A DNA stretch of 64,000 nucleotides, from the NCBI GenBank assembly GCA_028683955.1, contig JAQUGR010000002.1:248001-312000 (forward strand), written 5' to 3'. Numbering within the stretch: position 1 is the first letter of the stretch; each line of letters starts with the position of its first letter. The DNA is from Bacillota bacterium (GTDB lineage: Bacteria > Bacillota > TC1). Positions 33,458 through 41,051 of this stretch are shown piece after piece. Position numbers and translations under genes: made by a program. The notes below the pieces were generated by a model, which saw nothing but the letters and a program-made list of their open reading frames with translations, was not told the DNA's origin and ran no database searches.

Positions 33458-34477
33458 ATGAAAAAAATGAAAAAATTAGGTCTTGTTTTAGTTCTTTTAT
33501 TATTATCTTTAGTAGTAGTAGCATGTGACTCTGATACTTCAGATAATAAGTCAGACGATTTAAAAGTAGCTTTAGTAGTTACTGGATCAGTAGCTGATAA
33601 TGGCTGGTGTCAAATCGGTTATGAAGGCTTGAAAGAAATTGAAAAAACATATGGTGCTCAAGTTGCATATAACGAGAATACACCTGTTTCTCAGTATAAT
33701 CAAGTAATTAAAACTTATGCTAAAGATGGCTATAATGTAATCATCGCTCATGGTACTGAGTTTAAAGATGCTATCTTAGAAGTGGCTAAAGATTACCCAG
33801 ATACTCAGTTCTTTATTACAAGTTCTGATAGAACTGCAAAAATTGCCGAAGGTGACAACCTTTCTGGTATTTTAGCTGATGGTGTTGAGCAAGGATTCCT
33901 ACAAGGGGTTACTGCTGGATACATAGCTCAAAATCAAGGAAGCAAAACTGTTGGAGCTGTTGGTGGAATTGAAATAGCTGCTATTAAAACAACTATTGAA
34001 GGTTTCGAAACTGGTGTTCATTATGTTGACCCATCAATTAAAGTTTTATCAGGTTACACTGGTAGTTTTGATGATGTAAACAAACTTAAAGAACAATCAA
34101 TAACATTCATCCAACAAGGAGCTACTATCATAATGTCAACAGCTAATGCTGCTACAAAAGGTGGCTTTGAAGCTACTTTAGACAAAGGTGGAGTTTCAAT
34201 CGGTGCTAATGCTACTAGTTTAATGGATACTTATAAAAATAATCTTGCATTTTCAGCTAACGTAAGTATGGTTAAAGCTATGAGTACTGTTATTGGTAAA
34301 TTAGTTGATGGCGATTTTAAAAATGCTGACTTTGTAATGGGTATAAATGAGGGCGTTGTTACTATGGATATGAGTACAACTCAACCTGATATGTTAAAAG
34401 TTGCAGATAAAGTACAAGCTATATATGATGATATCATGTCTGGCAAAATCAATGTTACTGACGAATATAACAAATAG
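33458..34477 (+). CDS. BMP-family substrate-binding lipoprotein (second copy)
   Basis: A 339-residue lipoprotein. Signal peptide MKKMKKLGLVLVLLL, then lipobox VVAC (20-23). The mature part opens LKVALVVTGSVADNGWCQIG, the same fold start as the lipoprotein at 1556, and contains IAHGTEFKDA and QGATIIMSTANAATKGG. The start at 33458 follows GGGAGG. Again no ATPase or permease is adjacent. It is followed by a terminator and then a nucleoside-type deaminase, which supports a purine nucleoside or base as ligand, in line with known BMP proteins. Confidence 0.92.
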   Translation: MKKMKKLGLVLVLLLLSLVVVACDSDTSDNKSDDLKVALVVTGSVADNGWCQIGYEGLKEIEKTYGAQVAYNENTPVSQYNQVIKTYAKDGYNVIIAHGTEFKDAILEVAKDYPDTQFFITSSDRTAKIAEGDNLSGILADGVEQGFLQGVTAGYIAQNQGSKTVGAVGGIEIAAIKTTIEGFETGVHYVDPSIKVLSGYTGSFDDVNKLKEQSITFIQQGATIIMSTANAATKGGFEATLDKGGVSIGANATSLMDTYKNNLAFSANVSMVKAMSTVIGKLVDGDFKNADFVMGINEGVVTMDMSTTQPDMLKVADKVQAIYDDIMSGKINVTDEYNK

Positions 34478-39368: not shown

Positions 39369-39533
39369 TTATAGTAGTTCTAATCTTAGTTTATCAATAT
39401 AGGCTGTTTGTACATGAATTATATCTATCAATGTTATACCCCCACCTTCATTTAAGGTTGCGAATCTCGCTACGGTTTCTTTTAATGAAGTGGTTCTTAC
39501 GTCTATTGTATTTATAAAATCATCTATTTCCAT
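39369..39533 (-). CDS. Uncharacterised 54-residue protein upstream of the lipid kinase
   Basis: A small ORF with a strong GGAGGTG site four bases before the ATG and a TATAAT box (minus strand, 39556-39561) close upstream. The product starts MEIDDFINTIDVRTTSLKET and ends YIDKLRLELL; it is acidic, helical, soluble, and has no cysteines. The spacing to the lipid kinase start (nine bases) indicates one transcript. I do not recognise it. Confidence 0.7.
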   Translation of the reverse strand: MEIDDFINTIDVRTTSLKETVARFATLNEGGGITLIDIIHVQTAYIDKLRLELL

Positions 39534-39684
39534 GATTCACCTCCAAGGTATGCATATTATAGCATAAAGTGTTTTATGAAGAAATAGTTTATATTGTAGT
39601 ACTTTTAGCTAAATTGGGTAAAATTTCAATTACTTTTTTCAAGGTTTTCACATGACTAACAAATAAGTAGGGTATTATATGTAT

Positions 39685-39769
39685 GTAAGCTAACCACTTA
39701 CTAATAATAATAATAATTTTTTTCATCCAAAACCTTCAAAAAGCACTTCTAAAGTAGAGGTGCTTTTTT
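39685..39769 (+). ncRNA. Putative small RNA, copy 1
   Basis: A -10 box TATTAT (39673-39678) precedes a start near G39685. 5' hairpin GTAAG/CTTAC with loop CTAACCA, five AAT repeats, T-run, single-stranded CATCCAAAACCTTCAAA, then terminator AGCACTTCT (39742-39750)/AGAGGTGCT and a T-run. No ORF with a binding site lies inside. Confidence 0.7.
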
Positions 39770-39856
39770 ATTGTTTCCACAATATATGTGTAAAATTTCA
39801 GTTGCTATATAGAAAGAGTACACACAGTTAACAAATAAGTAGGGTATTATATATAT

Positions 39857-39941
39857 GTAAGCTAACCACTTACCGATAATAATAATAATTTTTTTCAACC
39901 AAAACCTTCAAAGAGCATCTCTATAATAGAGGTGCTTTTTT
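39857..39941 (+). ncRNA. Putative small RNA, copy 2
   Basis: Same plan as copy 1, -10 box TATTAT (39845-39850). The terminator stem is AGCATCTCT (39914-39922)/AGAGGTGCT (39928-39936), so stem bases vary while pairing is kept. The single-stranded segment reads CAACCAAAACCTTCAAA. Confidence 0.7.
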
Positions 39942-40018
39942 GTTACAAACATAATAATTTAACAAATATTTAACAAGACTATCACACAGTTTTCAAACTA
40001 CTAAGTTATTATATATAT

Positions 40019-40105
40019 GTAAGCTAACCACTTACCGATAATAATAATAATAATTTTTTTCATCCAAAACCTTCAAAAAGCACTTCTGTAGCAGAGGTGC
40101 TTTTT
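40019..40105 (+). ncRNA. Putative small RNA, copy 3
   Basis: Same plan, with five AAT repeats after GAT and terminator loop GTAGC. The 5' hairpin and CCAAAACCTTC segment are identical to the other copies. Confidence 0.7.
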
Positions 40106-40212
40106 AGTTATAAAGGTAGTTGTTAATTGTTTCCACAATTTATGTGTAGAATTTCAAGTACTTATTCCAAATAAAACACACAGTTATCAAACTACTGAGT
40201 TATTATATACAT

Positions 40213-40295
40213 GTAAGCTAACCACTTACGATAATAATAATAATTTTTTTCATCCAAAACCTTCAAAGAGCATCTCTATAATAGAGGTGCTTTTT
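40213..40295 (+). ncRNA. Putative small RNA, copy 4
   Basis: Same plan, four AAT repeats, terminator as in copy 2. It ends about 15 bases before the -35 box of the Rrf2 gene. Confidence 0.7.
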
Positions 40296-40309
40296 AGTTT
40301 GGACTCTTC

Positions 40310-40338
40310 TTGAATTCATAGTTAACCCATAGTATAAT
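40310..40338 (+). promoter_or_regulatory. Promoter of the Rrf2 regulator
   Basis: TTGAAT (40310-40315), 17-base spacer, TATAAT (40333-40338). The inverted repeat TAACCC (40322-40327)/GGGTTA (40346-40351) brackets the -10 box and may be an autoregulatory site. Confidence 0.7.
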
Positions 40339-40365: not shown

Positions 40366-40806
40366 ATGAAAGTATCAACAAAGGGCAGATATGCAATAAG
40401 GTTAATGATAGACATTGGGATTCAAAATAATGGTTATGTTAGATTAAAAGATGTTGCTAGAAGGCAAGAGATATCTATTAAGTACTTGGAGCAAATTGTA
40501 GGATCATTACAAAAGTCTGGCTTACTTTTAAGTTCTAGAGGAGCACATGGTGGTTATCGTTTATCAAAGGAGCCTAATGATTATACTATTGGGGAAATAC
40601 TAGGAGCTACAGAGGGTAGTATCGCTCCAGTAAATTGCCTAGATGATGATAAAAATAATTGTGCAAGGTTAAATATATGCTCCACAATAAAATTCTGGGA
40701 AGGTTTAAATGATGTTATAAATGAATATTTAAACAGTCATACCTTAGGTGAATTAATGGAAATTGAAAAAAACATAAAAGAAAAAAACATAGATTATAAC
40801 ATCTAG
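40366..40806 (+). CDS. Rrf2-family regulator (CymR/IscR-like)
   Basis: A 146-residue winged-helix repressor. MKVSTKGRYAIRLMIDIG is the family start; EISIKYLEQIVGSLQKSGLLLSSRGAHGGYRL is the recognition and wing part. Three cysteines in CLDDDKNNCARLNIC could ligate a cluster, as in IscR-like members. The following metY-cysK operon argues for a CymR-like role in cysteine control. The start has GGAGGT before it; a terminator follows at 40847. Confidence 0.9.
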   Translation: MKVSTKGRYAIRLMIDIGIQNNGYVRLKDVARRQEISIKYLEQIVGSLQKSGLLLSSRGAHGGYRLSKEPNDYTIGEILGATEGSIAPVNCLDDDKNNCARLNICSTIKFWEGLNDVINEYLNSHTLGELMEIEKNIKEKNIDYNI

Positions 40807-40882: not shown

Positions 40883-40911
40883 TTGACATTGGAGGTTAGG
40901 TTGCATATAAT
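40883..40911 (+). promoter_or_regulatory. Consensus promoter of the cysteine operon
   Basis: TTGACA (40883-40888), exactly 17 bases, TATAAT (40906-40911): a full consensus match. The start of transcription would be near 40918, about 41 bases before the leader peptide ATG. Confidence 0.88.
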
Positions 40912-40958
40912 TAAAACATACTAAACATATAGGAAATATATGCAATGGAGGTGTAAAC

Positions 40959-41051
40959 ATGAACAAGAGTATAAAAATATGTAGGAATAACAGACGAATG
41001 TGCTGTTGCAGCATGATTACAATTAATGAAATTTATATAAGAATAAAATGA
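40959..41051 (+). CDS. Cysteine leader peptide upstream of metY-cysK
   Basis: A 30-codon ORF with GGAGGTG six bases before its ATG. It begins MNKSIKICRNNRRM, then Cys-Cys-Cys (codons 15-17, TGC TGT TGC), then SMITINEIYIRIK. Cys8 makes four cysteines in 30 codons. The Cys codons lie in a small hairpin (TGCTG, loop TTG, CAGCA) that a stalled ribosome would open. The position between a consensus promoter and cysteine biosynthesis genes suggests attenuation that responds to Cys-tRNA. Cysteine-rich leader peptides of this kind are known before sulfur genes in mycobacteria; here it is inferred. No intrinsic terminator follows, so Rho-dependent or translational coupling control is more likely. Confidence 0.8.
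   Translation: MNKSIKICRNNRRMCCCSMITINEIYIRIK

Follow-up and report, generated by a model that had tools for sequence, protein, structure and literature searches.

A genus-restricted family of multicopy small RNAs in an uncultured Bacillota lineage, with a linker that mirrors a translation start

Background

The closest described systems are the csRNAs of streptococci (PMC3091779) and LhrC1-5 of Listeria (PMC4132741). The csRNAs are short multicopy RNAs with two stem-loops, and their promoters carry direct repeats for a two-component response regulator: the CiaR repeat NTTAAG-N5-TTTAAG lies ten bases before the -10 box (PMC3091779). They are recognised by an unpaired region, complementary to both the Shine-Dalgarno (SD) sequence and the AUG, between the two stem-loops. 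The LhrC RNAs are multicopy and CU-rich, and depend on the two-component system LisRK and on envelope stress. They block ribosome binding using three UCCC-containing sites located in loops and linker (PMC4132741).

Here we describe an array of four small RNA (sRNA) units in the window (the whole stretch of 64,000 nucleotides that was analysed). The family to which they belong is real, new, restricted to one genus and of a known working type. The reading that we favour, and consider fairly probable as a whole, is that each unit is a gene in its own right, with its own promoter and terminator, and encodes one of several near-identical trans-acting sRNAs of about 85 nucleotides, which would block translation start sites and be activated by PhoP. 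The array represents a previously undescribed family of multicopy sRNAs from an uncultured Bacillota lineage that has been little studied, and its putative start-codon block can be read straight from the sequence.

Results and discussion

Organization of the array

The four intact tandem units occupy positions 39645-40296 (+) of the window, ahead of an Rrf2 gene, where the first-pass annotation had placed them. The order in each unit (about 85 bases) is a -10 box TATTAT, a 5' hairpin GUAAG/CUUAC, an AAU-rich linker, a near-invariant U7-CAU-CCAAAACCUUC and a terminator. The -10 box, the hairpin (GTAAG/CTTAC), the AAT run and CCAAAACCTTC all match the earlier description.

sRNA unit 1: 39685..39770, plus strand; hairpin 39685-39701, U7-CAU-CCAAAACCUUC 39717-39737, terminator stem 39738-39768, -10 box 39673-39678
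sRNA unit 2: 39857..39942, plus strand; CCAAAACCUUC 39899-39909, -10 box 39845-39850; CAA (anti-UUG) replaces CAU
sRNA unit 3: 40019..40106, plus strand; one additional AAU, CCAAAACCUUC 40064-40074, -10 box 40007-40012
sRNA unit 4: 40213..40296, plus strand; CCAAAACCUUC 40254-40264, -10 box 40201-40206

Each unit is predicted to fold into the 5' hairpin and a strong terminator (z-scores of -4.25 to -4.44, about -4.3 overall; none of 200 shuffles was equally stable). The genome itself (1.59 Mb, 98% complete) contains exactly four copies, all in the array. The C-rich strand had been described as common to all units. This holds for three of them, but unit 2 has CAACC where the rest have CATCC. 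Similarly, CCAAAACCTTC is indeed conserved, but the copy alignment shows that the most conserved stretch is longer: AATAATAATAAT-TTTTTTT-CAT-CCAAAACCTTC.

Relatives and conservation

DNA and covariance-model searches covering up to 399 genomes identified 11 copies in four species of one genus: four here, three in G003, two in G004 and two in G001. With the same searches, no copies were found among 394 other relatives. All 11 are located immediately ahead of an Rrf2-family gene, behind which come a Cys-rich leader ORF and metY (with cysK next in the window). In a fifth species, G002, the same locus carries a single strongly diverged homologue (L034, about 1229-1327), which was missed by the covariance model. 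It has a hairpin AAAGGA/UCCUUU, then UUUUUUUCAUUUUGAUCCUC (T7CAT...CCTC) and a strong terminator. Together, the eleven close copies and this homologue provide a natural comparison of the linker positions important for blocking translation starts.

Alignment of the 11 copies shows variation in the hairpin loop, terminator letters, spacers and flanks, and next to none in the linker. Pairing-preserving changes on both sides occur in 7 of the 19 consensus pairs, all seven in the terminator, and none of 500 shuffles gave as many. Pairing is kept in 98.5% of the alignment cells, compared with 42-58% for shifted structures. The 5' hairpin is conserved, with no two-sided changes. The first-pass annotation had proposed that the terminator stems vary but stay paired, and that their structure is therefore under selection. 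The seven two-sided pairs bear this out once other species are added, but in the change originally cited (GCACTTCT / GCATCTCT against AGAGGTGC) only one side differs: C-G becomes U-G and the 3' arm stays the same, so that the window taken by itself provides weak evidence. The loop CTAACCA, also proposed as a pairing segment, is not likely to be the seed, as it varies between species and the linker does not.

The tandem placement upstream of a regulator gene might instead suggest cis-acting leaders, attenuators or a repeat element rather than trans-acting RNAs. We judge this extremely improbable. A promoter and a terminator are present in each unit, the Rrf2 gene has a promoter-like site of its own after the last terminator, and there are no copies elsewhere in the genomes. 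In addition, two units of G004 are split by an ORF of about 100 codons, which argues that the units are independent genes.

Comparison with known sRNA families

A covariance-model check against Rfam gave no family at its gathering score in the window, L018, L019, L020 or L034, in line with the earlier suggestion of a new multicopy family of the csRNA/LhrC working type. The units share with the csRNAs their multicopy nature, short length, two stem-loops and promoter direct repeats, as well as the unpaired anti-SD and anti-AUG region between the stem-loops. However, the csRNA model (RF02379) reaches 29 and 26.7 bits against a gathering score of 57, and the CiaR repeat TTTAAG-N5-TTTAAG is missing: the 11 promoters show a CACA-N7-TTAACA type, which resembles a pst box. 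Since both the model score and the promoter element fail, the units are not csRNAs. They also differ in forming a tandem array in a non-streptococcal genus and in the U7-CAU, which would stretch the start-codon block into the MKK codons.

The likeness to LhrC lies in the multicopy CU-rich RNAs, the probable dependence on a two-component system and the putative ribosome-binding block. In contrast to LhrC there is a single CCUUC + CAU linker. UCCC occurs in none of the 11 copies, so they are not LhrC, and the units give no Rfam match to that family. RefA9 (RF02844, Enterococcus sRNA A9) matches the linker and terminator weakly and below threshold (24-27.5 bits against a gathering score of 49), but its model also matches the opposite strand, and the similarity is that of a generic AU-rich stem-loop. 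The units thus appear to work like csRNA and LhrC and are members of neither family.

The linker as a mirror of a translation start

The reverse complement of the linker reads GAAGG-TTTTGG-ATG-AAA-AAA-A, that is, an ideal SD sequence, a six-base spacer, a start codon and two lysine codons. The near-invariant part therefore mirrors a ribosome-binding site and start codon, GAAGG-N6-ATGAAAAAAA, as expected from the previous proposal that the C-rich single strand is aimed at ribosome-binding sites. In about 346 kb of strand sequence the pattern T7CAT-N3-8-anti-SD has 11 occurrences, six of them in sRNA copies and the other five on the strand opposite a real gene start. In the G002 homologue the reverse complement is GAGG-ATCAAA-ATG-AAAAAAA: the spacer letters differ and both pairing blocks are retained. 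This retention is the strongest evidence for an action of the RNA on translation starts. Both the anti-start design and its survival in G002 support SD/start-codon blocking.

An alternative explanation of the same motif is that the gene lies on the minus strand and encodes a small hydrophobic peptide (MKKIIIIIGKWLAYI...), of the type I toxin kind, with the plus-strand RNA as cis-antisense antitoxin. SD-N6-ATG/TTG-AAA-AAA is indeed present on the minus strand of every copy, including that of G002, and the change from ATG to TTG in unit 2 retains a start codon. However, the minus-strand frames (with MKKIIII starts) range from 10 to 49 amino acids and differ between copies by single-base indels and early stops, so that the conserved hydrophobic peptide ORF opposite the RNA that characterizes such systems was not found in the copies. 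There is no conserved minus-strand promoter beyond the terminator, the conserved -10 box and upstream repeats belong to the plus strand only, and the one-sided U-G terminator pairs fit a plus-strand RNA. Because the frames are short and broken and the promoter elements are conserved only on the plus-strand side, a coding or toxin function is very improbable.

We also calculated duplex energies between the linker and 127 gene starts. The mean is -9.9 kcal/mol, compared with -5.1 for random 40-mers. Of 200 composition-matched shuffled linkers, nine bind the starts as well as the real one and 191 bind them less well. Taken alone this test is modest (about 1 in 22), given that purine-rich gene starts pair with any linker rich in pyrimidines.

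Proposed mechanism and candidate targets

In the mechanism that we propose, each unit would be transcribed from its own activator-type promoter into an RNA with a single-stranded linker and an intrinsic terminator, whose 5' hairpin may protect the RNA end. Target mRNAs would be bound in their start region by the linker, U7-CAU-N6-(A)CCUUC, of which ACCUUC would pair with the SD sequence and U7-CAU with the AUGAAAAAAA start, and ribosome binding would be blocked as a result. The several copies would ensure a high sRNA dose. A PhoP/PhoB-type regulator is the most likely activator, acting through direct repeats upstream of the -10 box, and the RNAs would then accumulate during phosphate starvation. 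Expression, PhoP activation and the translational block are all inferred from sequence.

No convincing full-length match of the linker to gene starts (at most 3 mismatches in 18) was found beyond the sRNA copies themselves, and the candidate target duplexes are of ordinary strength. The best local candidate is a gene six kilobases upstream of the array on the same strand, with a predicted two-part duplex over the SD sequence and AUGAAAAAAAU:

PnrA/Bmp-like lipoprotein gene (candidate target): 33458..34477, plus strand; start GGGAGGUUGUAAAAUGAAAAAAAUG; predicted duplex -17.9 kcal/mol, orthologues -19.2 (G004) and -15.3 (G001)

The genes of G004 and the window rank second and third by duplex energy among the 127 starts. 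Further candidate targets may be pstC (predicted duplexes of -15.5 and -15.3) and metF, whose GRRGGTTTTNNATG start is common to three species (-16.9, -12.4 and -12.3). The other GRRGGTTTTNNATG starts (a hypothetical protein MDDLLRLKL..., an L36-like ribosomal protein and a GlmU-like protein) were set aside; like metF, none stands out. Matches to the core GRRGG-TTT(N)GG in the genome itself were rejected since nearly all are within coding sequence. Among real starts, the strongest single duplex (-23.1) is that of L218, a 169-amino-acid small exported protein; it was also discarded, this protein having just one partial relative in the genus. In IMG/VR the 20-mer has a single match, located within a phage gene, which is attributed to chance.

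A broader and more tentative idea, which we think rather doubtful, is that of a phosphate-starvation array with a linker complementary in a generic way to SD-N6-AUGAAAAAAA. It would silence a whole class of mRNAs for exported proteins with MKK starts, including the PnrA-like purine-binding lipoprotein and pstC, the spacer drifting while the pairing blocks are kept.

Promoters and phosphate control

The sRNA promoters have a good -10 box, no good -35 box and direct repeats upstream.

Pho-box-like direct repeat TTAACA-N5-TTAACA of unit 3: 39959..39975, plus strand; distance to the -10 box as in pst promoters, no mismatches to the pst-type pattern
Proximal direct repeat of CACA-N7-TAACA type of unit 1: 39645..39662, plus strand; 28 bases before the -10 box, with equivalents at 39817-39834, 39979-39996 and 40173-40190

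Zero-mismatch matches to TTNACA-N4-TTTAACA-N31-TATWAT in five genomes are three pstS promoters, one site within a pst operon and unit 3; the pattern was set after seeing unit 3 and pstS, but the sites in the second pst operons were found by it. A pst-type box at pst spacing occurs in only 2 of the 11 copies (unit 3 and G003 copy 2), the other nine having pst-like repeats at a different distance from the -10 box than in pst promoters. Scored with a matrix built from pst sites only, the -28 repeats of eight of the 11 promoters are above all 861 background sites and the remaining three are in the top 0.7%, the copies being related and their scores not independent. The promoter of the G002 homologue scores poorly.

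The second pst operon includes genes for a PhoP/PhoB-like response regulator (below the curated PhoB cut-off), a PhoR/PnpS-like kinase and PhoU. A near-perfect or perfect Pho box also lies between pstS2 and pstC2 (G000:C15:229430-229483 and G003:C78:1314-1367), as if marking an internal promoter in this operon. Our literature search found no usable published account of a clostridial Pho box. A SigB reading of GTTAAC...GGGTAT was rejected on account of its spacing of 9 and because units 3 and 4 lack it.

The first-pass annotation had suggested sulfur or cysteine control from the neighbouring genes only. A related possibility is the same sRNA and translation block with a different regulator, either another OmpR-type response regulator or the adjacent Rrf2 protein (sulfur/Fe-S), instead of PhoP. 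Synteny with Rrf2, the Cys leader, metY and cysK is conserved in all species, most promoters carry TTTCAAG-N6-TTTCAAG and not TTTAACA repeats, and pst spacing is restricted to the two copies mentioned. However, the operator-like CATATAGGAA-TATATG element that precedes the Cys leader is missing from the sRNA promoters, which have instead repeats that resemble pst boxes by score. We regard this alternative as credible but unlikely. The pst-like repeats, and the pst box of unit 3 at pst distance, make PhoP control better supported than sulfur control, and the array is probably switched on by phosphate shortage via PhoP. If so, the csRNA and LhrC sRNAs, which are under two-component control, would have in it a counterpart controlled by phosphate.

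Neighbouring genes

The conserved neighbour of the array is the following gene:

Rrf2-family regulator (CymR/IscR-like): 40366..40806, plus strand; Cys-X7-Cys-X5-Cys; own promoter-like site at 40310-40338

Its cysteines are arranged like the cluster ligands of IscR, yet it lies among cysteine genes, and it scores under the curated cut-offs of both IscR and CymR. Before metY is a short ORF, MNKSIKICRNNRRMCCCSMITINEIYIRIK (40959-41051, +), with an NNRRM(C/S)C core conserved in all five species, which suggests control of metY-cysK through ribosome stalling on a leader peptide with cysteine codons. Between the promoter and this leader, at about 40911-40945 (+), the element CATA(G/C)TAAACATATAGGAA-TATATG is conserved in the species compared and is a possible operator of the Rrf2/CymR-like regulator. 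On the other side, a small conserved divergent ORF (MEIDDFINTIDVRTTSLNETV..., about 39385-39533, -) adjoins the array and also adjoins the G002 homologue.
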